Part shown: positions 5,620 to 41,495 of the stretch, piece by piece
Numbering within the stretch: the first letter of the stretch is position 1
Layout of the letters: every line of letters begins with the position of its first letter
Origin: a virus
IMG/VR virus record: IMGVR_UViG_3300009086_000035
Span: 1 to 41,814 of that record
Direction: 5' to 3' (one strand)
Length of the DNA stretch: 41,814 nt
Notes under the pieces: generated by a model
The model's database searches: none
What the model saw: only the letters and a program-made list of their open reading frames with translations
What the model was told of the DNA's origin: nothing
Translations under genes and position numbers: made by a program

Positions 5620-5659
5620 ATTATATCTAACTTGACATACAATGTCAAGAATTATTTTT
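5620..5659 (-). promoter_or_regulatory. Consensus late promoter P1 for the small fibre genes
   Basis: On the - strand: AAAAATA (5659-5653), 4 nt, TTGACA (5648-5643), exactly 17 nt, TATAAT (5625-5620). It lies just after the stop of the 2439-aa fibre gene. The predicted start at about 5613 leaves only about 14 nt of leader, so the ribosome binding site GGAGG begins almost at the 5' end. An 8-bp inverted repeat (5631-5649) overlaps the -35 box. Confidence 0.92.
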
Positions 5660-5665
5660 TTAATG

Positions 5666-8600
5666 TTAAGAAATATTTCCTAAGATTACCCTTTCATTTC
5701 CGCTTGAATCTAATACTTTAATAGTATCATTTACAAATTCTATTCGTCCACCAGTTGTTGCACTTCTTATATTTAATTTTCCTTGATCTTGGTCAAAGAA
5801 CATATGAGCTCCTGAAGGATCTCCAACAAAGAAGTCACCGTCGCTATTAAGAAGAGCACCCTTGCCTCCAGATAAAGTAGTGCCATTAATTGCAGGAACA
5901 GTGCCGCTTGCAACTCGAACAGTTCTTGCAAGTACAGAGGTGGCATTTAGTACATTAGTATCAATATTTTCCGCACTGATTGTAGTTATTTCAGCATATT
6001 CAGCAAAAATATTCTCAATCGTAGCATTTGTAGCATATATGTTACAAGCAAATAAGTCTTCAGCACCTCCGCCTGATTCAAGAGCCATGTGAGGATTTCT
6101 CACATAAACACTTTCTCCTGCATACCCTGAAAAGTTAAGAACATTTATAGAAGCCCAGCCATCATTAACAGGTTCATAGGCTACAGTATACGTTTTCCAA
6201 GCAGTAGTTATAGAGCTGTTTTCATGCCAGTTTCTTTTATTGTCCTCATCAGCATTGGCATTTGTTGCTTGAACTTCCGCATGACTGGTACTATGCCCTA
6301 CACTAGTTTTTCCATCGGGAAGAGTCGCTGCTTGATAATGGTAAACTCTAAGGTATAGCCCATTGCTATCTGCCACATCCCCTTTTACTTGTATCGAAAC
6401 TCTATATGTTTGACCGCCCTTAACTTTCATAGCTCGGTAGCTTGCACCAATCTCGGTATCAGCACTTCCTAAAGTTCTGTCGGTTATTTCTACTGCTCTC
6501 TCCTGGGCATTATATCGTATTGTATCTAGGTTAGTATTACTATATGCAGGTAGCCACCCCATTGAAAGTGCTAACTGTCTTTCGGTAATTATTTGATCCC
6601 AGGCACTCCACGTGGTATTGTTTTCCATTCTATAGAAAAGCTCTGGTTTATAAGTATCAAAACCTAGCTGACTTCCATAATTATTATTGGCGTCGTAAAG
6701 TCTGTGATGAAGAATAGAGGACCAGTTAGCACTTGTACCAAATCTATTGCTTGCATCATCGTCTGAGTAAAAGCCACTTTTTGAAACGCTATTCCAGTCT
6801 GTTACAGTCTTTTCATTGGTACCGCTACTATTGCTTCCATATATAATTCTGCTTGATTGTATACCATCAACCATGTCAGCGTCAAGTCCTGAGCCTGCTC
6901 CATCTGTCCTGCTTGTCCATACTTCTCGCCATCCCGGACTGTAGCCAGAGCCTTGATCGTTGTATATGAACACACCCCCTGCACTGTCTCCGGTATTGGG
7001 AGCGATTACAAGAGAGGTTATATTTCCTCGTGTACTATCACTTGAGTTATCTGTCCAATTAAGCCATGAAGTACCTGCGAGCTCGGTGAGTCCCCCACCG
7101 TCAGATAGATTATCATTTCCTGCGTAGTCCCACGAAGTTTTAAATGAAGATAGCTTATAATCAAAAACATCCAAACCTTCTATCTCGGTAAAGAGTTCAG
7201 CAGTAGTTATGCTACTACCAGAACCATCGTTTAATGTGGGGTTACCTACAGCGACAAAGTCTACATCTCTCCAGGGAACGTTTACAACACCTTGCCCGTT
7301 TGAGTTTAGCTGTAGCCCGTAAGTTCTGCCTGCTACATTACTGACAGCGGCTGCAGCTTGAGCTTGTTCTGTGTCGCTCCACAACTCTATTGCGCCTTTA
7401 TTGGCTGCTGTTGCTTCAGGGAGTCGAACACTATTAACAGTACCAGCATTTAAGTTGGTAGCATTTCTATAGTATGCTTTATCTTGAGAGTCTAAAGTAG
7501 CTGCGTTAATACCTGTCGAAGCAGTTGTGAGAACAGTGTCTCCTCCTGATTTAATGGTAGCGGCAACCATACTTCCATTAACTTTTCTTCTAAATACAAA
7601 CTGTCCACCGTCTCCATCATTATCATTATCAATATCAAAGTATAGTGACCCATCATCCATGTGTAGATCTGTAATATCATCACCATCTGTAGAATTGGCA
7701 TTTCTTCTTATTCTTAGTTTTCCGCCACCTGTTCCAGATAATACACTAAGACCTGCATCTGCTTTAATAATTTGACTTGCTTGAACAGTTGAGCCAGTTA
7801 CTGTAAGTTTAACATTAGCATTGTGCGCTCCTCCAACACCGAATTTAATGGTTCCAGCAGCATTTGAGTTTGTAATATATACAGGAGCAGAACGATTACC
7901 TATAACACCAAAACCGGAAAGCACTAAATCATCGGCATCGTAGGTACTATTTGTACCCGTTCCTGCAATTTCAAGAACTCCGGTCATTCTATCTCCGGCT
8001 TTTTCTACGTGTCCAACACCCGAATAGGTATAAGCGGAGTCCCAGTTTGCATCTTTTCTTGTACCTGCACCAGTACCAGAGGCAGGTTTAGAATAGATAC
8101 CTTCATTATACATCAACTTACCGTCAGCAAGAATAGTAGTTGTATTTTGATTACTGCCTAGAACAAACGAGGCATCACTACCATAAGAACTGGCGTTGGC
8201 ATGGTAGAACCCTAGAGTACCGAACTGGTTGTAATCACTCGTACCATTGACCAGGCTACTAAACTTAATGCTACAATCACCGGCATTTGTAGCAGACTTT
8301 AAGAAAAGCTGAGGGCCATTAACTGTAATATCAAGAGCACCCGTCATACTACCACCAGCTTTTGGTAACTTAGTACCTATACTAGTTGTAATTGTGGTAC
8401 TAAAACTTGCGTCATCTCCGAGAGCAGCTGCTAGTTCGTTAAGAGTGTTTAAGGCTCCGGGAGCAGAATCAACAAGATTACTAACTGCAGTATCGACGTA
8501 GCTTTCGGTTGCGTGTCCTGCTTGTGAGTAAGTATATGCATCATTCCAGTTTGATACATTAGCATCTGAGGCTCCTGTAATTGTACCACCGATAAAATTA

Positions 8601-11600
8601 CCACTACCATTAATACCTTTTGTTGTGTCATCAACAAAGAAACCACTATCAGCCCTTATATATCTAGGTGTATAGATATTTTTGGCGGTCACTTGATTTA
8701 TTCGTAGCCATGTATCGTCTTGAGAACCTATCTCACCTATTCTAGTAGTGCCGTTATAGAATTGTATGTGATCCGATAGGTTATTATCCGCTTTCTTTAT
8801 AAGAATTCGGGCATTTGAGCTACCATCGCCTACATTTATATCTCCCGAAGTCGTAGCGGACGCAACAGTAAGATTCCTACTAGAGTCAATTACTGTTGTA
8901 GTACCTACTTGATAACCTGAGTCTGCTTTAATAAAACCTGCAAGATAAACATCTTTCCACTTATTATTGCTCCACCCTAAACTAATATCACTGCTATGAG
9001 CAGTTGAAGTCATACTGGTAGGATGAATACATCTATAGGCAGAATTTGGTTGAAATAGTAATCCTGCTTCATCCTGCCCTATTGATGAGCTTGCTATATC
9101 TATATTTCCAGCTTTTAAAGATCCTGGAAAGGTTACTTTTTTATTCTCATCTACACCATATATTGTTTGTTTGCCTGCTGGATACCCGCCCCATATTTGC
9201 ATACGATATAAAGCAATATCTCTATCAGTATAGTCACCTGTGGACCAAGTAGGCTCAAAATCAATTCGTATTTTACTATACCGAGTAGAAGACGTTGGGT
9301 GAAATGCAATCGTGTCAAAAGGTAGGTACAAATGCCCTGGCCAAGACGACACTGTTGTATTACTTGTTGTATGGGTTGTCCAGCCATTTGCATTATGATA
9401 CTTACTAGTTTTTACAGTTGTACTGTGAGACTGACTGCTCCAGTACATATATAAAGCATTCAAATATACATAGTCGCCGTCATTTTCTAGTTCTATTCTA
9501 AAATGAGGAGTGTCATTAGGAATAATTACCGAAGAATTATTGTCTCCTCCCAAGAATTTTTTCTTATTATCATCAGAGAAAGAAGTATACTCAGTATAGT
9601 TTGTACCGTCTGTAGAAGTAAAAAACTTTAGTTTGGTTATATCATAGAAAGCAGTTTTATTATTAAACTGTTCCTGAAACAAAGCCATTTCTGTAATCGA
9701 AGGTGTGCCTAAATTATTACTAGGAACTCCATGAGTGCGTTGGTTTATTCTGAAATAACTGTCGGAAACATCTGAACGAAGAAAGTTTGCACCTTCTATT
9801 CCATCAACAGTGTCTGCATCTAATCCGCTACCCGTACCATCATTTCCAGCAGTCCACACCTTGCTGTTATTTACTCGCAGTTCTGTAGCATTTGCAATAT
9901 TTACAATATTGTCGTTGGCGTCATCTATTACATATAAGGATACATTATTTCCAGCACCATTTGTACCATCCCATATTATACCCTCTCCAGGATCATTGAT
10001 AGTAATTTGATTAACACCGCTAATATTATAGTTATTACCGAATATTCCTCCATTATCATGACCACCAACGTTTATTCCTTTGTCGAAAGTAATTCTTTCT
10101 GCGGCTGTGTCTGCGACATCACTTCTTAGATACTTATTATCTGTTTGTGTGGTTATATCAAAAGAAGTAAGATAACCTCCCTGCGAGTGATCTCCCCACC
10201 CATACGCCGTATCATAGTTACTTTTATTAGTTGCTGTGAGATCTCCACGATGCCATACTTTCTGCCAATCCGTTCCGTTATGAACATGAATCGCATTAGT
10301 GCTAGATTGACTATTTCCTGCAGAAGTAATTCTTATATTATCTTTTAGCCCGGTACTAGAGTTGGAACTGAAGTAATAATATCCTGTGTATGCCCCATGA
10401 TAGAATCTAGTATACTGTTGACCGCTGTAAGTGTGGCTTGCAAAAGTCAGAGTGTTTGCTGATAATTGTGTAGTATAATCGTCGTTTCCAGCAGTACCAG
10501 TATAAGAATCTAGTGTAAGAGATCCAGTAAGAGTACCACCCGTTAGAGGCAAGTGTCCTACTTGCGAATAAGTATATGCAGTATCCCAGTTTGAATCATC
10601 ATAACCACTTGCTGTAATTGTACCCGTAATAGTAAGATTTTGACTGCTATCTATAATGATACTATTTCCTTTCTTCAAAGAAGTACCATACTCTATACTA
10701 CCAGTATTTTTTATGTTTCCTGATACTGTAAGTTTTTCTTCAGGAGTGTTATCTCCAATACCTAAATTGTGTCCGATGAAACTTACTACATCCGCATCTG
10801 AATCTGTTAGATAAAGTCCATAGGCATTTGTAGGAAACTTACTTCCCGTACCAGAAGCAATTTGATAATCACCATAGAATAAGTAACTGTTACTTGTAGT
10901 ATACTTACCAATAGAATTATCATCAAAAACTGCACCAACTACATAAGCATTTGCAGGTGCATAAGACTGGCCGTTACTGGGGGCTTCATAGTTAATTTCT
11001 GATCGCATTCCCCAAAGAGTTTGGACATTATTACTACCAGTTTCACTATCTAAATTTGCAGATATATCTCCGCCCATCATTACGGTATCGCCACCGCTGC
11101 CGGTGCCTCTGCCGTATGCTATACCTCTTATGCCTTTAACATTGGTTGTTCGAGCGGTTCCACTTTCGTCCGCAATAGCTATACCATCTACACCTATAAG
11201 ATTATCGTTAGTCCCTGCAGAGTTTTCTGCCTCTGCTCTACCATATATTGCTTTTGTTGTTGCTTCTCCCTGGTTCCGGGCATCTACATATATACCATAG
11301 TTTATAAAATCATTGGCACCATTTCCACCACTAGCAGAAGAATCTAGATCAACATATAGGGCTGTATGTATTCTGTCGGCTGTAAGACTATCGCTACCGC
11401 TAGGGGTTGATCGAATATAGACATGGTTATAGGGAGTATTCCCTGCAGTATCTCCTGTTTCGGTAAACTGTATGCCGTTAGTTGCAGTAGACTCAATATC
11501 TAAATCTTTACCAGTAATTTTACCGTCGGTCTGAAAGTCTACAAGACCTGTGCCTCCATTGTCGTCCGAACTATATTTTACTCCATAATCTGCTACGTGT

Positions 11601-12985
11601 ACAAGGCTTGCCCCGGAGTAAGCTGTAGCTGTTGGAGCCATTGTCACAGTTTGACTACCTAGAGGTAAGACTTCTACATCAATAGCTGTATTTGTTGTCC
11701 CATTATGTTTTATACTTACATCAAAATCATCATTGTCATCACTGACAACTTTAATAGTAAGTACAGTATAGAATCCAGAAGTTGTTTTAACAATTATATC
11801 TTCACTATGATTTACCAAAATCTCTGCAGTAACATTTACTACTACATTGTCAGAAGTGCCTCTAAAAGTAGCTTTTACTGCTGCAGCTAGTCTATCTCCT
11901 TCAACCCTAAAAGCTCGAACATATGATCCGGCATTTACATTACTAACTGTTGCTTTCTTAACAGTGGCATAAGAATCATCAAGAGTAGTACTAAAGTCGG
12001 AGATTTTTAGGTATCTACCATCAAGACTTACGGTTTCAGTCCCTGTTTGCTTAGAGGCTGTAAGAGTACCCTCTGAAAAAGATAGATCAGTGAGGTGGTT
12101 ACTATATGCAGTATTCCAGTTACTATCGTTATAACCACTACCAGAAAGGGTGCCTGTGGCAGAAAGGTTTCCAGAAGCAGTTATATTTGCTATACTTAAA
12201 TCTCCTGTAGCAGTAATTCCTCCTGATACAGTAAGTTTACTTGTAATACTTGCAGGAGTTGAGTAGCCAATACCAACATTTCCTGTTTCTAGTACTGTAA
12301 AGGCTTCGCCTACTCCACTCGCTCCACCTGCCCAAAGTCTCCAACGATCTGAATCAAATCTTAAGGTGGCGCAAGCAGCATTTCCATATTCCAGAGCTTG
12401 ACCTATATCATCTGTCTCATTAAGATTACCTAAACTATGCCCTACTACTTCCAAGCTAGAATACACTTGTAGATTGTCATCAATTTTAACCGAACCACTT
12501 CCAGATTTAAGCGTAAGTTGGTAGTTTGATGCTGTTTCTACAAGACCGCTAGTATGAAGCTTTAATACATCTGCATCATTTGTTCCATGAATACTAACAT
12601 AGTCTCCTGCAGAGTTATCATCAGAAGGAACTAAGTGAAGCACTCCTTCGTTTGCATCATCACCGCTACGAGTTTCGTGCATGATATACCCAGGATCATT
12701 AGACCCTGAAGTAGCATAGAAGTATATATAGGATTTATCTGTATTTCCAGCAAAAGTATCGGCAATAGTAGTTGTATTACCTTCGGTATATAATTTAAAG
12801 TAGTTATTAGTACTAGTATCAATTATAAGTTCGCCAGTGAGAGTGCCGCCCGATAAAGGTAAATGATCCACCTGTGAGTAGTCATACGCACTTTTCCAGT
12901 TCGCAGACGTACCATGACTGGGAGTAGTAATTGTACTGCCAGTATCAAGACCATTCTTTACTTTAAAGTTTTTATCGTTTGCCAC
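5666..12985 (-). CDS. Giant tail fibre protein (2439 aa)
   Basis: The N-terminus NFKVKNGLDTGS is a typical fibre attachment sequence. About five copies of a module like NWxxAYxYSQVGH-LPL-GGTLTG punctuate the shaft, near residues 28, 285, 800, 1485 and 1650. Around residues 1490-1535 is a VDSAP-x-ALNTLNELAAALGDD module also present in the 4330-aa protein. Near residues 2130-2290 is a segment resembling a carbohydrate-binding jelly roll (QTYRVSIQVKGD). The C-terminus (INGTTLSGGKGALLN, GDFFVGD, then FDQDQGKLNI) resembles the end of some central tail-fibre proteins. GGGGAG lies 9 nt upstream of ATG 12985. It is probably a long receptor-binding fibre; trimerisation is inferred from the repeat type. 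Confidence 0.85.
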   Translation of the reverse strand: MANDKNFKVKNGLDTGSTITTPSHGTSANWKSAYDYSQVDHLPLSGGTLTGELIIDTSTNNYFKLYTEGNTTTIADTFAGNTDKSYIYFYATSGSNDPGYIMHETRSGDDANEGVLHLVPSDDNSAGDYVSIHGTNDADVLKLHTSGLVETASNYQLTLKSGSGSVKIDDNLQVYSSLEVVGHSLGNLNETDDIGQALEYGNAACATLRFDSDRWRLWAGGASGVGEAFTVLETGNVGIGYSTPASITSKLTVSGGITATGDLSIANITASGNLSATGTLSGSGYNDSNWNTAYSNHLTDLSFSEGTLTASKQTGTETVSLDGRYLKISDFSTTLDDSYATVKKATVSNVNAGSYVRAFRVEGDRLAAAVKATFRGTSDNVVVNVTAEILVNHSEDIIVKTTSGFYTVLTIKVVSDDNDDFDVSIKHNGTTNTAIDVEVLPLGSQTVTMAPTATAYSGASLVHVADYGVKYSSDDNGGTGLVDFQTDGKITGKDLDIESTATNGIQFTETGDTAGNTPYNHVYIRSTPSGSDSLTADRIHTALYVDLDSSASGGNGANDFINYGIYVDARNQGEATTKAIYGRAEAENSAGTNDNLIGVDGIAIADESGTARTTNVKGIRGIAYGRGTGSGGDTVMMGGDISANLDSETGSNNVQTLWGMRSEINYEAPSNGQSYAPANAYVVGAVFDDNSIGKYTTSNSYLFYGDYQIASGTGSKFPTNAYGLYLTDSDADVVSFIGHNLGIGDNTPEEKLTVSGNIKNTGSIEYGTSLKKGNSIIIDSSQNLTITGTITASGYDDSNWDTAYTYSQVGHLPLTGGTLTGSLTLDSYTGTAGNDDYTTQLSANTLTFASHTYSGQQYTRFYHGAYTGYYYFSSNSSTGLKDNIRITSAGNSQSSTNAIHVHNGTDWQKVWHRGDLTATNKSNYDTAYGWGDHSQGGYLTSFDITTQTDNKYLRSDVADTAAERITFDKGINVGGHDNGGIFGNNYNISGVNQITINDPGEGIIWDGTNGAGNNVSLYVIDDANDNIVNIANATELRVNNSKVWTAGNDGTGSGLDADTVDGIEGANFLRSDVSDSYFRINQRTHGVPSNNLGTPSITEMALFQEQFNNKTAFYDITKLKFFTSTDGTNYTEYTSFSDDNKKKFLGGDNNSSVIIPNDTPHFRIELENDGDYVYLNALYMYWSSQSHSTTVKTSKYHNANGWTTHTTSNTTVSSWPGHLYLPFDTIAFHPTSSTRYSKIRIDFEPTWSTGDYTDRDIALYRMQIWGGYPAGKQTIYGVDENKKVTFPGSLKAGNIDIASSSIGQDEAGLLFQPNSAYRCIHPTSMTSTAHSSDISLGWSNNKWKDVYLAGFIKADSGYQVGTTTVIDSSRNLTVASATTSGDINVGDGSSNARILIKKADNNLSDHIQFYNGTTRIGEIGSQDDTWLRINQVTAKNIYTPRYIRADSGFFVDDTTKGINGSGNFIGGTITGASDANVSNWNDAYTYSQAGHATESYVDTAVSNLVDSAPGALNTLNELAAALGDDASFSTTITTSIGTKLPKAGGSMTGALDITVNGPQLFLKSATNAGDCSIKFSSLVNGTSDYNQFGTLGFYHANASSYGSDASFVLGSNQNTTTILADGKLMYNEGIYSKPASGTGAGTRKDANWDSAYTYSGVGHVEKAGDRMTGVLEIAGTGTNSTYDADDLVLSGFGVIGNRSAPVYITNSNAAGTIKFGVGGAHNANVKLTVTGSTVQASQIIKADAGLSVLSGTGGGKLRIRRNANSTDGDDITDLHMDDGSLYFDIDNDNDGDGGQFVFRRKVNGSMVAATIKSGGDTVLTTASTGINAATLDSQDKAYYRNATNLNAGTVNSVRLPEATAANKGAIELWSDTEQAQAAAAVSNVAGRTYGLQLNSNGQGVVNVPWRDVDFVAVGNPTLNDGSGSSITTAELFTEIEGLDVFDYKLSSFKTSWDYAGNDNLSDGGGLTELAGTSWLNWTDNSSDSTRGNITSLVIAPNTGDSAGGVFIYNDQGSGYSPGWREVWTSRTDGAGSGLDADMVDGIQSSRIIYGSNSSGTNEKTVTDWNSVSKSGFYSDDDASNRFGTSANWSSILHHRLYDANNNYGSQLGFDTYKPELFYRMENNTTWSAWDQIITERQLALSMGWLPAYSNTNLDTIRYNAQERAVEITDRTLGSADTEIGASYRAMKVKGGQTYRVSIQVKGDVADSNGLYLRVYHYQAATLPDGKTSVGHSTSHAEVQATNANADEDNKRNWHENSSITTAWKTYTVAYEPVNDGWASINVLNFSGYAGESVYVRNPHMALESGGGAEDLFACNIYATNATIENIFAEYAEITTISAENIDTNVLNATSVLARTVRVASGTVPAINGTTLSGGKGALLNSDGDFFVGDPSGAHMFFDQDQGKLNIRSATTGGRIEFVNDTIKVLDSSGNERVILGNIS

Positions 12986-13009
12986 GGTTCACATCTCCCC
13001 AAATGGCTT

Positions 13010-13026
13010 GCCCCCATTGCGGGGGC
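13010..13026 (-). promoter_or_regulatory. GC hairpin in the leader of the 2439-aa fibre gene
   Basis: A perfect 6-bp inverted repeat GCCCCC - 5 nt - GGGGGC sits between promoter P2 and the ribosome binding site of the 2439-aa gene, in an AT-rich context. It has no U tract in the - strand direction, so it is not a standard terminator. It could stabilise the messenger or modulate initiation: the GCCCCC arm could also pair with the GGGGAG ribosome binding site at 12995-13000. Confidence 0.6.
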
Positions 13027-13046
13027 GGAATTTGAATTTGGTATTA

Positions 13047-13086
13047 ATTATATGATATTAAAGATACTTTGTCAAGGTTTATTTTT
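13047..13086 (-). promoter_or_regulatory. Consensus late promoter P2 for the 2439-aa fibre gene
   Basis: On the - strand: AAAAATA (13086-13080), 4 nt, TTGACA (13075-13070), 17 nt, TATAAT (13052-13047). The predicted start near 13040 gives a leader of about 55 nt containing the GC hairpin. It begins right after the stop of the 4330-aa gene. Confidence 0.93.
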
Positions 13087-13091
13087 GCTAC

Positions 13092-16000
13092 CTATACTGT
13101 AACGCAGTGTCTTGCTACTTTCACCGTTGCTGCGCTTGCAGAAGACATTGTAACTTTAAGTTCTACATTATTTCCGTTGATTGCAGTCTGCAGCGTTCCT
13201 AGTACCCCATTTGTTTCAATTTTTGCAAACTCTGTGGCTGATGCAGTGGTTCCGTTATGAAGAACAAGTACTTCCGACACTTGATAGTTAGTACCTTGAG
13301 TAATCTGTACTGTATACTTTGCACTTCTAAAAGATGCTTTTGCAAAACTATCTACCACAGTTGCAGAAGTTGAAGATACTGCAGTAGTGGCTGTTGTAAC
13401 ATCTAAGTCTCCTACTGATAACGATGAACCTACAGAAGCTACATCATCTGTTTTCTGTATATCTATAGCCTGTATTACCGTTTCTCCAGATCCTTGATGA
13501 TTTGTAACAAGGACAAAGTCAAAGTATTTACCTTCTGGATCAAATTTACTATCATCTCCACCAGTTGTAGGAACATTATAACCTTTAACAGTACCTTCAA
13601 AAGTATAGGTTTGACCAGCAGTAAGAGATACGTTTTCAGCGAGTGCATAGTTATAACTATTAGCATTATCAGTAGCTAAATTTGCAAAATCTTCATCTAA
13701 AGTTTTTACACCTGCATAGAATTTCCCTGAACCACTATCTGTTGATATCTGCTTTACTCGAACTTTGAGTCTGTAAGTTGCTTCGGGATCAATAGGCATT
13801 TTAACATTTACAGTACCAGTTACCGCACTAGTATGGTCTATGCTTAAACCTTTATGAGTGGCACTGTAAGCGACGGTTCCAGCTCCCGTATCCAATAAAT
13901 CACTCCAGTTATTATTGCCTACAGAGAACGATTTAGAAGTATTGGCTTTTGTAATCTTTCTGCCGCCTATATTTAAGGACTTAACATTATATAGATTTTT
14001 AGTATTAAAATTAATGTTTGAGTTGCCTGAACTAATTGATAGCTCATTACCGCCATCATTTGTAATATTTCCTCTGGCACGAATACTACCTGTGAAGTAC
14101 GCACCTTGACTTGAGGAAACAAACAGATAGTTATCTGGAATAATTACTTCACCAGCATCTCTTATTCTCAAAAGATCTGAGCCACTACTATCCTCAACTC
14201 GGAAAGCTATCTTTGCATCATCACTATCTGAAGTCTCACCCTTAACATGAAGTCTTGCACTAGGGCTATCAGTACCTATACCTACACGCCCTGTATCTCC
14301 TTTCACAGTCATACGTCGAGTGTCGTTTGCATAAACTACCACATCTCTGCTACTTCCGTAACCTCGTATATTGAAATCATCATTTTGAGTATCAATCCAA
14401 GCTACGTCTGCACCGTTATTATCTAATAGTATGATTCTGTGATCATCGTTATCAGAAGTATCTTTTAGAGTTAAGTACGGACTGTCTCTATCTATTCTAA
14501 GATTTCTATTGAACAACCACCCTGTGGAAGCGTGTTCATAAGTAAGAGAAGCATCTGCACCATCAACAGTAATCCCCGATCCATTTGCTGCTGCGGAATC
14601 TGCCGCCCCTTTAGCAACAGTAATATTTAAATCATCAACATCAAGAGTAGTAGAGTTAATCGTAGTGCTTGTACCGTCAACTTGCAAGTTACCCGCAATA
14701 ACTAGAGTACCATTATTATTTCCATGATCTCCATTTGCGTCAGCAGGATCAATAGTAAAGTTCTGCGGTCCTTTTAAAGTACCGGTCATAACTATATCTG
14801 ACTGAGTACCTAAGGTTAGACTGTTATATACTCCAGAAACCGCTCCTGAGAAGCTAGTAGAGGTATTCAGGTAGTATGTAGCATTTTGTCCATCTAACTG
14901 AGAGGCATTACCTCCGTCGGCTGTTGCTGTAAATCCTGTACTATCAAACGCTGTAAGAGGAACATTTCCTGCTTGAACCTTTTTCTGATTACCTGCATCT
15001 AATACTACAAATAAATCTGTAGACTCCATATCATCAGTGGTTTCAGTAAGTTCTGTTAAATCAACATTAAATTGTGTCGTACTTAAATCAAGTAGGGCAC
15101 CTGCAGTATATTCAGTATTGTTATCACTCCAGGGAACATTTACATATGCTTTTTCACTATCAAGCTGTACAGGGTAGTTTTTATCTGTTTGAGTATAGCC
15201 AATCTTAATACCACCAAGCGCACCGCTTGTAGCTGCAGGAAGGGTATAATTGTTCGCATTCGTATCTATAGTATCAAGTTTAGTACCATCAGTAGCAATA
15301 TCACGACCATCTACAGTACCAGATACAACAATATTACCAGTTACGCTTACGCCTCCAGAAGTTGTGGCTAATTTTGCTCCGTTATCATAAAGAAGTGTTA
15401 CCGCTCCGTTCTGACTAGCGGTAATCATATCCTCATCCATTGCTACATTTCTCAATGCAAAAACATCTGTAGCTAGAATTAATTTTCCTGTACCATTATC
15501 TTTAATAACACTATTACTTGCGTCATGGTATATTTGTAAATCTTCTGAATTACCGAATGTAGCCTTATAAGTATCTTTAAAGTCAAAGTCCCCATAGATA
15601 GCATTAGCTCGGAAACGATCAGGCCAATAAGATCGATTAGTATTGTAGTTGTATGCCCATAAATGATTAATCCGAACAGCAGTTCCTGCAAAATTAGTAA
15701 GAGTATATCGTACATGACTAGTGTTTGTACCACCCGAACTAAAGTACACATGATGATTCATTAAACCGCTATTTGTTATATTTAATCTTTCAGTGAAGGT
15801 AGATCCATCAGTAGAAGTTTCAATTTTTACATCTTTTGCTCTCCAACTCTCTCCACCGAACTGTATACCTGCATGAGATCCATGAGTAAGACCACAGTCT
15901 GAAATTGTAATTACAACAGTATCTGTATTTGAAGTACTAGTCTGTCCAGAATTAGCACCTGATTGGAAAGGACTTCCTCCTAAGTCTATAGACGTACCGT

Positions 16001-19000
16001 TCTTTGTGGAAGTAACAGTTAAACGTTTGTTTGCACCCGCTATATTATTATATGAAACTCCAGGAATATATACACCATCGGAAACATTTTCCGAGCTAGT
16101 ATCAAGCACAAATCCACCCATTTGAAGCAGTCTATTTGTCGCAATGTGACCTTTAAAAGTTTCCGTACCTAAAGTTAGTTTATTTGAGGCGCTGCTTGCT
16201 CGAGATAGAGTAAGATCTTGGTTATAAGAAGAAAGAGTACCAGAACCAGAAACAACAGTTTTATTAAAGTAGAAGCTACCTCTATCTGTTTGGATATGTG
16301 CCCATGAACTATTTTCAGAGCCTACAGAGACCCAACCAGTAGGAGTAGTAATCTTCAGTTGACCCGTTGCTCCACCCTGAGATAGATCCGTATTTGTGTC
16401 TGTAATATAAACATTTCCACCCGCTACTGTTAAATCACCTGTAGTATTAACATTACCTGTTGATGACACAGTCATAGCTGTACCGTCTACACTATTAGCA
16501 AATTCAAAACCGTAACCAGTTAAACCAGTGGTTGCTTTCCAAGTACCTCCATAGTTACGGAATGCGGAAGTATAACCAGTATATACATTCCCATTTGATG
16601 TAATACCCGCATTATTAAAATAAGCTATTCGAGTACCGTCTACTAATACATTAAGATTGTCATTGTCTCCATTTGCGGTTGCGGATAAGCCTGTATCTGT
16701 TCTTCCTGTAAACGCTATAGAAGGTGCTGATGTTGTCCCTTGAGGGAAGTAAGCATTGCCCGCAAAAGTAGCATTTGCACTTGTATCAATACTTAATTGA
16801 TTTGTACCGTCTTTTTGAATTGCGAACTCATTTGCACCACTGCCATCAAAATCTCTATTCAATCGGAAGTAGTGATCCCCGTTTCCGTCAGAATCTTGTA
16901 TAGCAGTAATCGAGTTTACAGTATCTGTTACATGCAAGTCTAGAGACTGATTCGCTGTGCGTCCTACCATGAAAGTACCGGTGCCTTGCGTTGTAAGTAC
17001 TCGCAAGTCTCTATTCATGTTCCAACTATCATCAGTGTTAGTATAAGTAAAGGTAGCATTTGCACCGTCAACAGTTAAACCTGCTCCATTAGCCGCAGCT
17101 GCATCTGCCGCACCACTTGCTACAGTAATGTTAAGATCATCGACATCAAGAGTGGTAGAGTTGATAGTAGTAGTTGTACCATCAACTTGTAAATTACCTG
17201 CGATAACAACAGTACCAGTATTGTCACCATGAGTAGCAGGATCAATAGTAAAGCTAGCCGGGCCTTTAAGAGTCCCAGTCATTGTAATATCGTTGATATT
17301 TTGTATATTCGGAGTTCCGCTATTTCTATCAAGCCAAGTAACCCAACCATTACCAGCTGAATTCAGAACTTGAATAGCTTTACGATGTTTAATATCACCA
17401 TGTGTTTCTAGGAATCCATCCGCTCTAAGCTGGTATAAATCTCTTGCTGACATGTCACCGGCATTATTTATACGAGTAGTAGCATTAATAATAACATCGC
17501 CATTTGCAATATTAAGACTTCCTTGATTTAGTGTTACTCTGCTATTTGCAATAGACGTATTTGCTACAGGATTAACACTAAATATTGTTGAATCATCTGC
17601 ATTTCTTACTTGTAAACTATTATTATCTTTCGCATCAAAAATGAAGGAATTATCATAATATGAAAATCTTGTAGCATCTCCACCTATTTTACTAAGCTCT
17701 GAGTTAGTGCCTGTTCCTGCATGTTTCAATACTAGAGCTTTTGTATTATTTAATTCTATGTTTGCAGAGTGAGTTTTAACACCTGATACTGTTTGAGCAC
17801 CTGTAGTAGTTAATACTGTACTATCAATAGAAAACTGAGTATTGGTCAAATCTAAACCAGTACCTGCTGTAAAGGTAGTGTCTTGGGTTGTTATAGTAAG
17901 AGTATCATTTGCGTCATCTTCTGTAAGAGTAACATTTGTACCCGCTGTCAGCATTGCTACTGTAACATCACGAATATCTTCATCAGTTCTTTGAGTATTG
18001 TTAAAGCTAGAGTCAATGGTGAGTGTGTCTGCACTATCATCTTCAGTAAGTGTAATATTATTTCCGCCGCTTAACATAGCAACAACTACATCACGAATAT
18101 CTTCATCACTTCGTTGAGTATTTGGAGTACCAGCAATAGTTACAGTATCTGCCGCATCACTTTTAGTTACTGTAATATTGTCCCCCGCCGTAAGCATTGC
18201 AGCAGAAACATCTCTAATTTCTTCATCTGTTCTAAGAGCCGAAGAAATAGTTACAGTATTTGCATCATCGTCTTTAGCTACTGTAACATTTGTACCTGCT
18301 GTAATAATACTAGCTGCAACATCTCTAATCTCTTCATCAGTTCTAGGAGTTACGGTGGTTGCTACAGTAAGAGTGTCTGCACCATCATCTTCTGTGAGGG
18401 TAATACCTGTGCCTGCGGTAAGCATTGAAACAGTAACATCACGAATATCTTCATCACTTCGTTGAGTATTTGGAGTACCAGCAATAGTTACAGTATCTGC
18501 ATTATCATCTTTTGTTACCGTAATATTTGAGCCGCCTGTAATCATTGCTGCAGAAACGTCTCTAATTTCTTCGTCAGTTCTTGCAGTTACACTATTTGTT
18601 ACCGTAAGTGTATCATTTGCATCGTTTTCAGTAAGAGTGATACCTGTACCTGCCGTAAGCATTGCTACCGTAACATCACGAATATCTTCATCCGTTCTTT
18701 GCGTGTTTGGAGTACCTGTAATTGCTAATGTATCATTTGCATCATCATGAGAAACACTAATATTAGTATGAGTAGCTCCTGTAATTAATGCAGCTGCTAC
18801 ATCCCTAATCTCTTCGTCTGTTCTTTGAGTGTTTGGAGTACCTGTAATGGTTACAGTATTTGCAGCATCATCGTTAACTACTGTAATATTGCTCCCTGCG
18901 GTAATCATACCAGCTGCCAGATCGCGAATAGCCTCATTACTTGGTCCATTTATAGTAAGAGTAGTTGCATTAGTTCTTACAACCCCAACATTTGTACCTC

Positions 19001-22000
19001 CTACAAGCTCTACATCATCATTAGTAGCGTTTGAACCTGCTAGTCGTATTTTTGTGGTGCTTTCTGGCACAGTTAAATCGTAGGTAGTGTTAGGCACAGT
19101 AACAGATTCATTGGTTCCATCACCTTTTGTTAGTGTTACTATTGAATTTTCTATACTTAGAGCATTGGAAGTAGCAAGTGCTTGTGCGGAACTAGTTTGA
19201 ACTCTATTTCCAAGTGCATTAGAGGTAGTAGTTGCAAAATTAGCATCATCCCCTAAAGCCGCGGCTAGTTCATTAAGAGTATCTAAAGCTGCTGGAGCGG
19301 AGTCAACTATACCCGAAACCTGAGTATCTACATAAGTTTTTGTAGCAATAGTCGTGGTATCTACAGTAATTGCGGAAGTATTAACATCTTCTCCCTCTGA
19401 ATTAGTCTCCGTGGTAACAGCTAAGTTTAGCCCTGTTGAAATATTTATTGCCTGACTAGCTGCAGACTCTTGTGTTCCATCTTCTTGCATGATGATACCA
19501 GCAATGGCATCAATCTGAGAATCCTCATCAATTAATACACTATTTAAGGATACACCCGAAATAGTTAAATCGGTACCATCCCAAATAATATATTTATTAG
19601 CATCACCAAATACGAACTTACCATAGTTTAGATCAATAAATGCACCGTTCTCAGACCCGGTAGGAGCATTATCTGCATCAGCAATAGGATTACTAACGTT
19701 AGCTTTAAGAGTACCTGCTGTAATGTCTCCAAGATCAGCACTAACCGCCGCTACATTAGTTACATTTATAGCACTAGCATCTACTGAGTTAGCTGATATA
19801 GCATTTGCGGTTACCGCATTTGCAGCAAGAATATTTGCATTCACCGCGTTAGATTCTATCAAAGTAGCATTTACAGCATTTGCTTCAATAAAGTTAGCAT
19901 TAATTAAAGAAGCATTTATCATACCAGAAATTACAGAGTTAGCAGTAATTTGTGCAGAGGTAATAGAGTTCGCCGCTAGTTCATTGGTGGTAATAGCATT
20001 TGCTCCAATATGATCTGACGTAATAGTAGAAGCACTAATTAAGCTAGATACGATAGAGTTAGATGTTATTTTATCTGCAGTAATAGCATTTGCCGCAATG
20101 TGATTAGACTCAATAGTTTGTGCATTAATAAGAGTGGATACTATTGAGTTAGCTGTAATTTTATCAGAGGTAATAGAGTTTGCCGCAATATGATTAGACT
20201 CAATACTCTGTGCATTGATAAGAGTAGAAACGATAGAGTTAGATGTTATTTTATCTGCAGTAATAGCATTTGCAGCCAAAGTATTTGTAGTTACAGACCC
20301 TGCAGCTAAGTGACCTGTTTGAATCTTCTCAGCCGTCATTAGAGTAGATACAATAGAGTTTGCAGTAATATGATCTGCAGTTACATTGTTTGCTGCTATT
20401 TTATTTGTTGTTACAGAGCCTGCTGATAATTCAGTGGACGTAATCGTTTCTGCTAATATAGAATTTGCATTTACAGAGTCTGATGCTAAAGAGTCTGCAT
20501 TTACTGCATCTGTTGCAATTTGATCATTTTGTACAGCATTGTCTGCAATTTGATCATTTTGTACAGCATTGTCTGCAATTTGATCATTTTGTACAGCATT
20601 ATCTGCAATTTGATCATTTTGTACAGAATTGTCACCCAACTGATCATTACCAACAGTATTATCAATAATTATTGAGCCATCTTGATTTTGCTCTACTTTG
20701 TACCAGTTGGTTCCATCGTAAATAAATAAAACTACTGCTGTAGCATTTGTTTCAGTTCCTGTAAAGAAGTAAGCCATATCTTTAGGTATAGCATCACCAG
20801 GTCTATTTGTCCAGCTTGCATCCCAAGCAGCGTCCGCAGTAGCATTATTAGTGGGTAGACTGCTAACAGGTACATAATACTCGCCTGCCCCTCTATTACC
20901 TGTTTGACCGACTTTTGTACCTGTAAATACTTCGGAGTCTGTGTATGTTTCTGTAAACGACGTAAATGTTTCCGTAACTTCACAAGTAATTTTTTCTGGC
21001 AAATCACTTATATTATTCGGAGGAGTATATGTTAAAGTTTGAGAGGTTTCACCGTTAATCGTAGTACCATCTTTTTTCCAGACATAGGCTAAAGTAGAAT
21101 CAGAATGTGCTCTCGACAGCATTGTTGCAGTCAAAGTAGAGGTAGCAGGTGTGCCACTTTCTATTCCAGTACCATCTTTCTCATATGTAAATACTTTTAC
21201 GCTTGCATCTATTCTTGTAAGACCTACTCTAGTCGCTTTAGCAGTTGCTGCAAAACCTTGTGTACCACTATAACCACTTACTGACGCATTAGGCCAGAAG
21301 TTGGAAGGTATTTTTCTATATGCAGAACCTGCTATATTAAAGGCGGGCTGGTCTGTTATATTTCTAAACCAGTAGTAATAAGTAGCATTACTTGCTCCGA
21401 TTCCTGAGTATACAGATTCTTTAAATAAACCATCTTTCTGTGTAGAGACTAAAATAGTATTTGTAGCTTTACCTGAACCAGATCCTGAATCATTACAGAA
21501 AAATACTTCCCCCACTGTATTTAAAGCAGCACCTATTAAGGTAAAATCTGTAGTACCTAATTCCGTAATTCTATACTCATGTCCAGGCACAAAACTACCT
21601 GCAGATACTTCATTGTTTAAACTATTTACATTACTACGCCAAATTTCTGTTACTGTTGTACTCTTAGTTACTCCTGCTTGTTGTGCAAATGCTAAAGTAA
21701 TTTCTCCAGCTCTTTCAGCACCTACTTGAGCTGCTCCTGAAATAGTAGGAGTATCTGGATAGTTTTTATTAGAGCCCGCACTTGGATCTATTCTGTCGTC
21801 AGAACTTGGTTCGGTTATGGTATAGATCTCATCGCTGTGCTCTTCTGCCGTAACTGTTGTCTCTCCATTTACTTTAAACTGTAGAGACGTAATTCTGAAG
21901 TTTTTGGAGTCAAAATTAAACGGAGAGTACGTTATCTCTATAATACTACCTGCTGTTAGCAGTCTACCTTTCGGTCCAATAGTAAATTGAATTTTTAGCC

Positions 22001-32748: not shown

Positions 32749-32762
32749 TGTAACTCCTAACG

Positions 32763-33689
32763 TTATTTATTGTATGTGATAGTTGTAGATAGCGCCTGAT
32801 TGCTAGTATTTCTCCACTCATAATTTTGTAAAAATACATCGCTAACTGCTGATCGATTTGTAAATGAGCTGGTCGGCATATCAATATCTACTCCATGAAA
32901 AGATCCATTTATAACTTCTCCTACTCTTATTCGGAGAGAAATGGACTCGTTAAACTGATATAATTGCTGATTGTTGGTATCGCACAAATATCGTGTAATG
33001 TTTCCTGCCAAAGACTTTTTACTAACAGTAAATTTTTTAGGGAAGATTGCTGTAGAAGCACCGATAACATTTATGGCATCATCTATTGTTGCATTTTCTG
33101 TCCATCTTATACTGTTTTGTAATTCTGCCTTTATAGCAACTATCTCAGTTGAGATATCCAAATTATTACCACCTAACTGTACCAATACCTGCTCATTCAT
33201 CAATATCTTTCTATTAGAATTGACGCTTGCACTAGACCCAGGGATAAGTGCATCAGATGTGATGGTACTTGTTACCCTGGAGAGCTTTGAGGCGGTTCCA
33301 GAAACTGTTAAGCTCAGGGGTTTGGATCGCTCAATCCCGTACGTCCCATTTGCAATAACACAATCTTTCAGATAAAACCTATCAAGCTCAGTTGATATAT
33401 ACAAATCAAATACTCCACAGCTAATTAATTTATCATGTACTATTGCTGTTGTATTATATGAAGTATTATCTTCGTAAAAAAATACCGAAAATTTAAAGTT
33501 TGCAGGATTAGCTTTTTTGATTGTTGATCTATCAAAAAAATCATTCTGTGCATGCAACGTTTTAACAGCTTTCGGCTTATCTGTAAATGTTTGACTAAAT
33601 GACAGATCAGGCCCAACCTCCAACTTATATTTGGTGCCGCTTACTACCAAATATACTTTGGCTTCCTGTTTAATGTTATAATTAGCCAT
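32763..33689 (-). CDS. Second tail-tube-like protein
   Basis: A 308-residue protein whose start (IKQEAKVYLVVSGTKYKLEV, then DLSFSQTF) follows the same pattern as the tail tube protein encoded just upstream (EVEVYVKYDTDYWKVPV, then GFSFSQST). The rest is beta-rich: an SLTVSGTASKLSRV segment, a central helical IVAIKAELQNSIRW segment, and a C-terminal barrel with SISLRIRVGEV. GGAG precedes ATG 33689. It may be a minor tube or tail-tip ring subunit, or a specialised paralogue of the tube protein. The paralogy is seen as pattern, not proven by alignment. Confidence 0.6.
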   Translation of the reverse strand: MANYNIKQEAKVYLVVSGTKYKLEVGPDLSFSQTFTDKPKAVKTLHAQNDFFDRSTIKKANPANFKFSVFFYEDNTSYNTTAIVHDKLISCGVFDLYISTELDRFYLKDCVIANGTYGIERSKPLSLTVSGTASKLSRVTSTITSDALIPGSSASVNSNRKILMNEQVLVQLGGNNLDISTEIVAIKAELQNSIRWTENATIDDAINVIGASTAIFPKKFTVSKKSLAGNITRYLCDTNNQQLYQFNESISLRIRVGEVINGSFHGVDIDMPTSSFTNRSAVSDVFLQNYEWRNTSNQALSTTITYNK

Positions 33690-33704
33690 AAATCTCCAGA
33701 TAAT

Positions 33705-33732
33705 AAAAAAGGGGTCTGAAAAAGACCCCTTT
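33705..33732 (-). terminator. Intrinsic terminator between the two tail-tube-like genes
   Basis: Inverted repeat AAAGGGGTC (33732-33724 on the - strand) - 7 nt loop - GACCCCTTT, with T6 and more T following in the - strand direction. It lies 15 nt upstream of the next start and about 15 nt after the predicted start of transcription from promoter P3. Confidence 0.9.
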
Positions 33733-33752
33733 CTTAACTTTTTCTATCTCAT

Positions 33753-33792
33753 ATTATAGTGCAAAGGACCATAAATGTCAAGAAATATTTTT
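33753..33792 (-). promoter_or_regulatory. Consensus late promoter P3, upstream of a terminator
   Basis: On the - strand: AAAAATA (33792-33786), 4 nt, TTGACA (33781-33776), 17 nt, TATAAT (33758-33753). Transcription would start near 33746 and meet the terminator at 33732-33705 within about 40 nt. It follows directly after the stop of the tail tube gene. Confidence 0.92.
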
Positions 33793-33799
33793 CAGTATG

Positions 33800-34936
33800 T
33801 TATGCACCTACATATAGAACTTCTAACTCGTCAGTAGCGCCGATATCTGTTGGTAGTGCGTGGAAGTTAACTTCAACACCTACAACATCTTCAACATTAT
33901 GAGAAGGAACTTCTAAGTGACATTGGTTCATATCAAACTCTACTCGTGGAGTAGATGATGCCCCGCCTACTTGGAATAGTAGAGCAAATTTATTCTTAAC
34001 TGCACCTTGCGAACCAAGTAGATCTTCAATAAGATCAGCACTTGAGGCTGTGTTATGATCTAAGTAACAAGTAAAGCTACCTGATACAGTACGACCTCCA
34101 AGAGTGTGTCCTAAAGGCTTATTAACTTGACCTAAGCTGGCAGGAGTTACATATTCTACGTTATTAGTAATAGTAATGCTTCCACCTGTAAGTACTAGAT
34201 TATAAGATGCTGCAATATCTCCGCCCATCGCTGAAGCTACAGTAAGCTGGGTCAAACGGTTACGAATAAAGCTACCGGTATTTTGAATCTCAGCATCAGT
34301 GACTTCCATTGTTGCACTACCGATAGCAGTAACAGTACTGCCTGCGGCTTCACTTAATGATTTTGCAGAACCTGACCAGTTAAGAGTAGTAATACCATCA
34401 ATATCAAACTCAGCAGCACACTCATTAACAGTAGCATCACCAAGCTCATACCAAATATCGGTATTACCGCCATCAGCAGCATCATTACCCGGGAATTTAA
34501 ACCAGATTGTAGCTGAAGGAGCAGTTAGTACGTTTGATTTGTTAAACTTAACTTTAGCACCGGCATCACCTTGCTCGATAGAATCGGCTTGGGTAAATTT
34601 GTTACTAGTACTATTATAAGCAGTATGAGGTGTTTGGTTAAGCATAGCCCACATAACTTCTTCAATCATGTGATGCTCGTCAGTCTCACTAACAACTCTT
34701 TTGAAAGGTCTAGCATAAGTAGAGAAACTCCACTCTGCAGGAGCCATAGAATCGTTAAACATTAAACGACCACGACGGCTAGCATTACTACCGTTTGCCA
34801 TCTCTTTAACAGCTACCTCTGCTGTATTTGTTGATTGCGAGAAGCTGAAGCCGTCAAGTACAGGAACTTTCCAATAATCCGTATCGTACTTAACATAGAC
34901 CTCTACCTCGCGACTTAAATGTAAAGAATTTGCCAT
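33800..34936 (-). CDS. Major tail tube protein
   Basis: A 378-residue protein starting MANSLHLSREVEVYVKYD. The N-terminal part (to about 110) and C-terminal part (GGRTVSGSFTCYLD, LLFQVGGASSTPRVEFDMNQ, then VEVNFHALP) have the beta-barrel signatures of tail tube proteins. A central Ser/Thr/Ala-rich segment may be an inserted Ig-like domain. AGGAG lies 7 nt before ATG 34936. Position between the tail terminator and the chaperones fits. A strong terminator follows, fitting high expression. It builds the hexameric rings of the tail tube. Confidence 0.8.
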   Translation of the reverse strand: MANSLHLSREVEVYVKYDTDYWKVPVLDGFSFSQSTNTAEVAVKEMANGSNASRRGRLMFNDSMAPAEWSFSTYARPFKRVVSETDEHHMIEEVMWAMLNQTPHTAYNSTSNKFTQADSIEQGDAGAKVKFNKSNVLTAPSATIWFKFPGNDAADGGNTDIWYELGDATVNECAAEFDIDGITTLNWSGSAKSLSEAAGSTVTAIGSATMEVTDAEIQNTGSFIRNRLTQLTVASAMGGDIAASYNLVLTGGSITITNNVEYVTPASLGQVNKPLGHTLGGRTVSGSFTCYLDHNTASSADLIEDLLGSQGAVKNKFALLFQVGGASSTPRVEFDMNQCHLEVPSHNVEDVVGVEVNFHALPTDIGATDELEVLYVGA

Positions 34937-34998
34937 AGTTTATCTCCTATGTATCTTGAAAAGACTTGGACGTGAACTTTTGTTCGTGCCAGTATTTT
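34937..34998. other. 62-nt leader before the tail tube gene
   Basis: This gap contains a strong AGGAG ribosome binding site (34944-34948) but no TTGACA/TATAAT pair and no clear terminator. It is one of the few late-region gaps of this size without the shared promoter. Confidence 0.5.
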
Positions 34999-37453: not shown

Positions 37454-37473
37454 AATTCTATAAGTCCATTAGT

Positions 37474-37507
37474 AAAAACTTGGGGGAGGCGAACCTCCCC
37501 GAAGTTT
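37474..37507 (-). terminator. Strong intrinsic terminator after the capsid gene
   Basis: The hairpin arms GGGGAGG / CCTCCCC (37500-37494 and 37489-37483) close over a TTCG loop on the - strand, a very stable tetraloop. The stem is extended by AAACTT/AAGTTT across one mismatch, and a T tract follows in the - strand direction. It sits 17 nt after the capsid stop codon. Confidence 0.95.
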
Positions 37508-37523
37508 AAAAGTATTACTACTA

Positions 37524-39563: not shown

Positions 39564-39565
39564 AA

Positions 39566-39889
39566 CTATTTTCCTTTCTTAACTGCTGATTTCGCAGCAG
39601 GCTTAGCCGCAGCTTTTGGCTTTGGTGTAGCTTTTGGCTTTGGTGTAGCTTTTGGAGCTGGCTTTGCTTTACTTTCTGCCATCTCCATTAAATCTGGGTG
39701 AGATACTTTTAGAGATGCTACCAAGCTCCCCCAGTTTTTAAATATTTTCTTAAAAGTAGCATGAGTACTCATATGCTCCATTGGATAATGTAACAGAGTT
39801 TTTGCATCTGTAATTTTATCCAGTCCGTGTTCCGCTAAAAGCATTGCTACTTCTTGTCGTATTTTTCTTTTTCTCGTAGGTGTAATCAT
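39566..39889 (-). CDS. Small head-region protein with basic Lys/Ala/Pro tail
   Basis: A 107-residue protein of unknown function. Residues 1-70 look like a small helical domain (RKIRQEVAMLLAEHGL, TLLHYPMEHM, then FKKIFKNWGSL). The last 35 residues are a Lys-Ala-Pro tail of PKATPKPKATPKPKAA type, encoded by an 18-bp direct repeat at 39611-39646, and resemble the tail of histone H1-like proteins. It lies between portal and capsid genes and overlaps the portal stop by ATGA. Its charge suggests binding to nucleic acid or an acidic partner. No known head protein could be recognised. Confidence 0.65.
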   Translation of the reverse strand: MITPTRKRKIRQEVAMLLAEHGLDKITDAKTLLHYPMEHMSTHATFKKIFKNWGSLVASLKVSHPDLMEMAESKAKPAPKATPKPKATPKPKAAAKPAAKSAVKKGK

Positions 39890-41070
39890 TCTTCCTCTTC
39901 CTCTACCGGGCGTCCGCCCTCTTCTGGATTTGCTGCTGAACCGGCAATGTTTGCAGGTACGCGTATATCTTCTGCCTCTTCTCTAGGGTCATAACCCAAC
40001 GACTCTCTTGCTTCATTCGGGCTAATAATCCCACCATTTACTAAAGAAGAATAGTAAGAAGCTGCATCTCTCAATTCTGGTTGAAGTGCTGGGATGTCTG
40101 TAATATCTTCTTTAATACCAAAACCAAAGTATCTCTCAATAGAGTGGTTTAGTTTTTGTACTATAGGTAAAACTGCTTCTAAGTAGTATAATCTCATATT
40201 TGGTCTCAAGTTTGCATTGTTTCCTGAGTCCAATAAGATAGGGGGTATACCTAGTGATTTCAAAATAACCTTTTCGTTCTCTAATATGGAGTTTTGAAAA
40301 TCTAAATCTTTAAAATTAGTATCTGAAATACTGTCTACTTCTAAACCGCCATCTAAAATTAACGGTCTACGTCCGCCAGTATCAGGACGATAACGTGACT
40401 GCCACGATACCATCATACGTTCTTTAATTTTTTCAGAAAGAGTGTTAGGAGATTTAAGTACAAGTCCTGGAACTGCTCCGTTCTGAAAAAAGTTATCCTG
40501 AAAGTTTCGCATTTGATATATAAGTCTCATTGTGCGAACTGCAGGTCTTAATCGTGAAACTCCTCTGTATAGGGAGTGAAACGAATTTTCTTTTACATGA
40601 ATAATTTCTTGCGGTAAATAATCAATGTCCTGATATGTGTACTTCTCAACGTAAGTCTTTTTATCTGCATGAATAGTAACTTTATCCGCAGGAAGGTGGT
40701 ACATATGTGCACCGTCAAAGTAAATAAAGATATTTCCATCTAGTAGATAGTCTGTAATAAGGTTTCTTCGGAAGGAGCTAACATCTTGATAAGGGTTTGG
40801 TTGATGATTAAGTAAGTTTTCAACCCTAGCTCTTTTTACACCTTTAACAACTCCGTCATTCTTATAATCTCTTTGTACAATCGTTGGTATTGCTGCAACG
40901 TCATCTACGAGCATATTTACACCACGATTTACAATTTCTAATTCTTCATAGTACTTTTCATAGCTAAATACCGGCTCTCTAGAACCCGCTGTCTCATTGC
41001 CCATATATTGTTGAGCAGGATTCAACTTCTCTTCGACAGGTTTTTTACTAAAAGGATTATACCAAGCCAT
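39886..41070 (-). CDS. Portal protein (HK97 family)
   Basis: A 394-residue portal. The pattern YYEELEIVNRGVNMLVDDVA, then LLDGNIFIYFDG, SLYRGVSRLRPAV, LGIPPILLDSGNNAN and a C-terminal EARESLGYDPREE is typical of HK97-type portals, and the length is near the usual value. It forms the dodecameric ring through which DNA enters and leaves the capsid. An acidic tail (EEGGRPVEEEEE) ends it. The start overlaps the HNH gene by 14 nt and lacks a strong ribosome binding site, so translation is probably coupled. Confidence 0.95.
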   Translation of the reverse strand: MAWYNPFSKKPVEEKLNPAQQYMGNETAGSREPVFSYEKYYEELEIVNRGVNMLVDDVAAIPTIVQRDYKNDGVVKGVKRARVENLLNHQPNPYQDVSSFRRNLITDYLLDGNIFIYFDGAHMYHLPADKVTIHADKKTYVEKYTYQDIDYLPQEIIHVKENSFHSLYRGVSRLRPAVRTMRLIYQMRNFQDNFFQNGAVPGLVLKSPNTLSEKIKERMMVSWQSRYRPDTGGRRPLILDGGLEVDSISDTNFKDLDFQNSILENEKVILKSLGIPPILLDSGNNANLRPNMRLYYLEAVLPIVQKLNHSIERYFGFGIKEDITDIPALQPELRDAASYYSSLVNGGIISPNEARESLGYDPREEAEDIRVPANIAGSAANPEEGGRPVEEEEE

Positions 41071-41422
41071 GTTTTTCTCTTTGAATCTTTACCCAACGCA
41101 TCTGCTTTGTAGCTGTAGTCAGTGCTGGATCTTTACCGTAAATTGAATGAAGTTTCAAATGATGAGTATGACACAAAGTAGATGTGTGTTCATATAGCTC
41201 AGCATGATGCTCTTCTATAAAATCATCCCGAAGTGCTTGAATGTACTCGGGATTGTGATTGTTATCTTTTATCCATTTGTTTAACAATGGTGTGAGACTG
41301 TAAAAGTGGTGAAAGTCTAACTGCTCTGTTGCACCACAAATCTCGCAAGAGGAACCCTTCTCATACTTGGATTTTGCCTTATCTCGTACATACTTTACAA
41401 TGTCACGTTTTAACTTAGGCAT
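41057..41422 (-). CDS. HNH endonuclease of the packaging module
   Basis: A 121-residue HNH nuclease. Zinc ligands are Cys26-x2-Cys29 (SSCEICG) and Cys84-x2-His87 (TLCHTHH). The His pair His38-His39 in LDFHHF starts the catalytic motif, and His88 or His92 is a likely further ligand. Small HNH proteins encoded beside the terminase are needed for DNA packaging in HK97-like phages, so this is probably a packaging cofactor rather than a homing nuclease. It is the first gene after promoter P4 and lies between terL and the portal gene. The start at 41422 has GAGG close upstream. Confidence 0.87.
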   Translation of the reverse strand: MPKLKRDIVKYVRDKAKSKYEKGSSCEICGATEQLDFHHFYSLTPLLNKWIKDNNHNPEYIQALRDDFIEEHHAELYEHTSTLCHTHHLKLHSIYGKDPALTTATKQMRWVKIQREKHGLV

Positions 41423-41455
41423 TTTCCTCTGGTTCCTTTATTTTTCATTTAAAGA

Positions 41456-41495
41456 ATTATATCTAGTTTAAGCTAACTTGTCAATAACTATTTTT
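41456..41495 (-). promoter_or_regulatory. Consensus late promoter P4 for the head genes
   Basis: On the - strand: AAAAATA (41495-41489), 4 nt, TTGACA (41484-41479), 17 nt, TATAAT (41461-41456). Transcription would start near 41449, giving a leader of about 27 nt before the HNH gene. The promoter begins right after the terL stop. Confidence 0.93.

Follow-up and report, generated by a model that had tools for sequence, protein, structure and literature searches.

Four gaps between the late genes of an uncultured T5-like phage carry promoter-like sites, in which the same two hexamers stand at the same spacing behind the same A-rich box, raising the question of what these sites are, which polymerase would read them, and whether they mark the genes behind them as late. 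The window analysed here, a stretch of 41,814 nucleotides representing a 41.8-kb IMG/VR record, was assigned to the late half of such a phage through protein families and tblastn comparison with T5. The T5 gene order is kept (portal, protease/major head protein, connectors, major tail protein, tape measure, distal tail protein, and fibres), and the nearest deposited relatives are T5-like phages at 30–40% amino-acid identity. No nucleotide relatives of the late block were detected among deposited phages at megablast sensitivity. At the left end, an nrdB-like gene (ribonucleotide reductase small subunit, 274–1245, + strand) runs opposite to the late genes.

A pattern search of the window returned AAAAATA-N4-TTGACA-N17-TATAAT four times on the − strand with zero mismatches. 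The sequence-only reading had listed four perfect-hexamer sites with a box at fixed distance, and its coordinates and strand proved exact. Promoter 1 (41456–41495; box 41489–41495, −35 41479–41484, −10 41456–41461, predicted start near 41449) lies upstream of a T5.153-like gene (41057–41422, −), the first gene after it and preceded by an AGAGGA Shine-Dalgarno sequence, followed by the portal gene (phrog_12, 39886–41070, −; E 2.5e-65, 38% to the T5 portal), the protease/major head protein gene, and further genes as far as that of the major tail protein (phrog_3575, 33800–34936, −; E 9.6e-49). The latter is directly upstream of promoter 2 (33753–33792; box 33786–33792, −35 33776–33781, −10 33753–33758, predicted start near 33746), which separates it from a baseplate/tail tube gene recognized by protein-family match (phrog_3889, 32763–33689, −). 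Promoter 3 (13047–13086; box 13080–13086, −35 13070–13075, −10 13047–13052, predicted start near 13040) sits between a gene for a 4330-aa J-like protein and a 2439-aa fibre gene (5666–12985, −), which it would drive and after whose stop codon comes promoter 4 (5620–5659; box 5653–5659, −35 5643–5648, −10 5620–5625, predicted start near 5613), upstream of an L-shaped-fibre-assembly-like gene (5261–5599, gene-family match). Genes on the same − strand thus flank each of the four sites, and the promoters are intergenic and co-directional. The J-like central fibre protein (13092–26084) is encoded by a gene whose T5 counterpart, D16 (pb3), measures only 2850 bases.

Low-GC sequence favours words of this kind, and the four sites could in principle have arisen by chance or through the spread of a mobile repeat. 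Dinucleotide shuffles (n = 100) gave a mean of 0.05 matches, and 0/100 contained four. In the window, no further match to the 40-nt pattern was found at up to three mismatches, and no position besides these four came within one mismatch of TTGACA-N17-TATAAT. The sequence shared among the four sites is confined to the promoter elements, with none outside them, contrary to what a mobile repeat would leave. Together with the strand bias and the conservation over hundreds of distinct sites described below, these results refute both origins, to which we give practically no credence. The word AAAAATA by itself occurs often in the window (27 copies observed, 20.5 expected), so that the signal is its register to the −35 hexamer and not the word; the box as a free-standing motif was rejected on the same count.

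The pattern was then sought in 103 related late loci picked by similarity of portal, major tail, and tape measure proteins, not by the box. Hexamers with at most one mismatch at the 17-nt spacer occurred at 102 distinct sense sites versus a single antisense site, and spacers of other lengths yielded 1–13 sense sites each. AAAAA(A/T)A stood exactly 4 nt upstream of the −35 hexamer in 94 of the 102. In a non-redundant set, for which perfect sites were thinned to less than 60% identity (n = 34), the box was present at the 4-nt offset in 20 and at any other offset in 0–3. At position −41 the non-redundant set has T in 74% of sites and A in the other 26%, and the box is therefore written AAAAAWA. 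The thinned-set consensus gave no clear signal in the distal region from −59 to −47. A homologous site for promoter 1 is present in 33 distinct related sequences; promoter 3 has one in G003 (L117), which reads TATACT and is followed by a leader like that of the window, and promoter 4 has them in relatives G001, G003, G004, and G009. The sequence-only reading would have been refuted by relatives that keep the hexamers and lose the box or its spacing; it passed this sequence-based test, as hexamers, spacer, and box register are kept together in relatives. Its statement that the bases between the elements differ among the four sites needs refinement, since the 4-nt gap is itself constrained across relatives, mostly to [A/G]TTC, giving the block consensus AAAAATARTTC-TTGACA.

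We consider it highly probable that the four sites are T5-type σ70 promoters with a proximal UP-like A-tract, read by the host RNA polymerase. The early as well as the late genes of T5 use the host σ70 polymerase (PMC7472727). By this mechanism, the host polymerase with its housekeeping σ would bind TTGACA and TATAAT, and one α C-terminal domain would hold the minor groove of AAAAAWA, the α and σ preferences of the host being assumed. Strong initiation would be expected about 7 nt after TATAAT, and the four promoters would give the late region separate transcripts for head, tail, fibre, and distal fibre. The proposal of the sequence-only reading that these are strong σ70-type promoters with an UP-like A-tract is supported by the hexamers, 17-nt spacer, and box register retained in relatives and with the similar placement of the A-tract in T5.

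The conservation of T−41, A−40, T−38, T−37, and C−36 exceeds that of a generic A-tract, and the T at −41 and the TT at −38/−37 are stricter than a plain A-tract needs, leaving room for an extra reader. AAAAATARTTC might accordingly be bound by an activator of phage origin that contacts the polymerase beside −35, and polymerase-associated proteins are indeed encoded by T5-like phages (PMC7472727). However, the box abuts the −35 hexamer where a proximal UP subsite would be, has no inverted-repeat symmetry, and is found about as often at early promoters, some of which presumably fire before much phage protein is present. Perfect hexamers need no activator, and most T5 promoters carry an A-tract that lies in nearly this register but differs in its exact sequence. 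An activator site appears improbable to us.

The σ70 promoters with their UP-like box are not a property of late genes alone. Long relatives have such promoters on the opposite strand ahead of early genes, and the same hexamers and box were found in the D2, D3, ligA, ligB, primase, and D11 regions of these phages. In 79 early loci, picked by D10 helicase similarity so that the box played no part in the choice, AAAAATA stands at 4 nt in 66 of the 85 sense promoters, and on this count the box as a late marker, defining a late-specific promoter class, was rejected. The sequence-only reading had held that box and perfect hexamers set the late promoters apart and that late genes compete by promoter strength for the unmodified host polymerase. 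In its favour, AAAAAWA is slightly commoner at late sites (94/102 versus 68/85 early; 23/31 versus 7/13 in thinned sets). Against it, early promoters of the same phages share the hexamers and mostly the box too, and look equally strong, so that a difference in strength does not account for the timing. Moreover, D5, which late transcription requires according to a note in the T5 record, has a conserved homologue, at about 50% identity, in both relatives whose contigs reach that region. We hold a late class defined by box, hexamers, and strength to be very unlikely.

Early and late promoters do differ at other positions. Early promoters have G at −13 in 95% and A at −6 in 86%, whereas late promoters are mixed at −13 and have T (55%) or A (32%) at −6; these percentages include related sequences, and the thinned sets (13 early, 31 late) show the same trend in small numbers. 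T5 early and late promoters have been reported to differ mainly in the discriminator (PMC7472727), and the −13/discriminator split seen here parallels that difference.

Of the four promoters, promoter 2 alone has a terminator within about 40 nt, a point against the reading of the four sites as strong σ70 promoters. The intrinsic terminator (33705–33729, −; GGGGTCT-TTTTC-AGACCCC-TTTTTT; fold z-score −4.9) lies just downstream of the promoter, about 25–50 nt on within 33705–33752, and ahead of the baseplate/tail tube gene. An automatic terminator scan had named the other strand only, although a U-tract is present on the − strand too. In the window and the related post-major-tail-protein sites of this form, the terminator starts 20–24 nt after TATAAT, the stem reaching to 39–42. 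It occupies this fixed distance in 22/22 related sites, versus 2/395 other promoter-like sites and 2/740 shuffles; the 22 are the post-major-tail-protein sites of this form, other ATG-initial sites having a different leader and many of them lying at other genes. The stem has undergone compensatory changes (GGGGTCT/AGACCCC, GGGGCTC/GAGCCCC, GGGGTGA/TCACCCC, GGGGCCT/GGGCCCC), and the promoter 2 leader, ATAGAAAA, is nearly invariant among related sites.

Given the adjacent terminator, transcripts from promoter 2 should mostly end near +40 unless antitermination or read-through intervenes, and a terminated RNA of about 40 nt is predicted. The terminator either ends the major-tail mRNA only, or gates the tail genes, or yields a short RNA. 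By analogy with the lambdoid PR'-tR' layout, promoter 2 and its terminator might form a gated late promoter, stopping near +40 until antitermination, or a source of a short regulatory RNA; this would be an addition to the σ70 reading for one site, not an exclusive alternative to it. The fixed distance, the compensatory stem changes, and the nearly invariant leader argue for such a role, but the terminator may merely close the abundant major-tail mRNA, and only one of four sites is concerned. We regard gating as possible, though doubtful.

The leader of promoter 3 also contains a hairpin, GCCCCC-GCAAT-GGGGGC (13010–13026, −), within its predicted 5' UTR and lacking a U-tract; when the leader was folded whole, the hairpin was not significant (z-score −0.6). 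At the same position G003 has AACCC-TGCAAA-GGGGTT, suggesting covariation. Ahead of T5.153, many relatives have an ATG about 7 nt after TATAAT (window 41438–41448) that opens a reading frame, MKNK..., out of the T5.153 frame. A leader peptide there is doubtful, because some relatives have ATA instead of ATG.

Relatives whose sequences extend past the position of the window's end, beyond which this gene lies, provide a further late promoter. Their T5.156 homologue is the terminase small subunit (terS; phrog_3802, E 5e-36), and its start codon follows TATAAT by 7 nt in 19/21 and by 6 nt in 2/21 distinct starts. None of the 21 has a Shine-Dalgarno sequence ahead of terS, and an in-frame stop precedes the start in most. 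Examples with a perfect TATAAT are L056:4897-5358, L002:434, L017:5451, and L070:5570; of these, L002 has a portal identical to that of the window. Since the start codon lies at or within 1–2 nt of the predicted transcript start and a Shine-Dalgarno sequence is lacking, the terS mRNA should be leaderless, and terS is a predicted leaderless late gene. A search of the literature on leaderless phage late genes and on T5-like transcript maps found nothing directly relevant.

What, then, would separate early from late? With hexamers and box common to early and late promoters, the decision does not reside in the box, and on the sequences compared here late timing must come from elsewhere than box or hexamers. 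The choice would most likely be made by the discriminator and the initial transcribed region, acting with phage factors such as a D5-like protein and polymerase-binding proteins. In T5, a phage protein that binds the polymerase alters the balance of early and late transcription (PMC7472727). A homologue of gpT5.026 was not found in the long related contigs, which are incomplete. In a tentative synthesis, possible but less likely than not, the marine T5-like clade would use one near-ideal core and proximal UP module common to early and late genes, the temporal class would be encoded by the discriminator and the bases transcribed first (early G-TATAAT-AT; late TATAAT-TCT, -TTG, or -ATG), and the promoter-terminator gate and leaderless terS would add further late controls. 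The early-to-late switch of T5 with one host polymerase has been described as unknown (PMC7472727). Across hundreds of natural promoters in this clade, hexamers, spacer, and UP-like box are nearly constant and the differences fall mainly at −13, in the discriminator, and in the first transcribed bases, so that the location of the early/late class signal is narrowed to about 10 swappable bases, which usefully limits the possible answers to the early/late question in T5.

The pattern extends beyond these loci. Among the first 120 loci listed in an IMG/VR exact-pattern scan, 96 had T5-like genes, early and late. In bacterial genomes, matches fell mostly in low-GC Firmicutes, which indicates a generic strong-promoter architecture not unique to these phages; within the sequences scanned, it is unusually dense in this marine T5-like phage group. 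Only three clearly T5-like contigs appeared in the bacterial-genome scan, in MAGs labelled Bacteroidetes, Halieaceae, and Gammaproteobacteria. The exact pattern on T5-like contigs L301 (Halieaceae MAG) and L362 (Gammaproteobacteria MAG) is a weak hint of a marine gammaproteobacterial host; MAG binning is too weak a guide for a host to be named. A third promoter type, with the GC-rich discriminator TATAATCGGCGC, was seen near a dmp-like gene in G004 (L113), G005 (L115), and G009 (L120). This discriminator recalls those of rRNA promoters, and the promoter type contains GGCGC, near the T5 nick consensus as given in the T5 record. The label "pre-early" was not adopted for these CGGCGC promoters, the dmp-like gene being the only such neighbour, with no A1 nearby.

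Among known systems, the proximal subsite of UP elements resembles the box in being an A-tract immediately next to −35. Its selected consensus is AAAAAARNR; the remaining A positions and R−39 of the box fit, and the T at −41 departs. With T there in about 75–80% the box is not a continuous A-tract, and binding by the host α is putative. A proximal subsite alone can function at Mu Pm (PMC4390567), which the present sites resemble in lacking any sign of a distal subsite between −59 and −47, and T5 N25 has been described with an UP element (PMC12464699). Promoter 2 invites a different comparison. The lambdoid PR'-tR' unit is a strong σ70 promoter in the late region with an intrinsic terminator at once after it; promoter 2 likewise has a conserved intrinsic terminator at short distance, but it is one of four late promoters only, and its phage is T5-like, not lambdoid.

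The closest likeness is to the σ70 promoters of T5 itself (P-N25, P-H207, late P-J5, P-G25), with which the present sites share phage gene order, the 17-nt spacer, and an A-tract that adjoins the −35 hexamer on its upstream side in most early and late promoters. In the aligned T5 annotated promoters (n = 45, AY543070), A occupies −45 to −42 in 78–89%, the spacer is mostly 17, and in most the A-tract is in the same register to within about 1 bp (T5 −45 to −41; here −46 to −42 plus A−40). The fine sequence differs, the T5 −35 being mostly TTGCTT or TTGCTA and its box AAAAATTYA, in contrast to TTGACA and AAAAATARTTC here, although late PJ5 has TTGACA like these sites, with AAAAA at −46 ahead. The arrangement differs as well: annotated PJ5 lies before the tail gene and PG25 comes after its terminator, whereas the promoter-terminator pair here is found behind the major tail protein gene. 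With T5 promoters of like A-tract and spacer on record, the kind of promoter found at the four sites is one already known.
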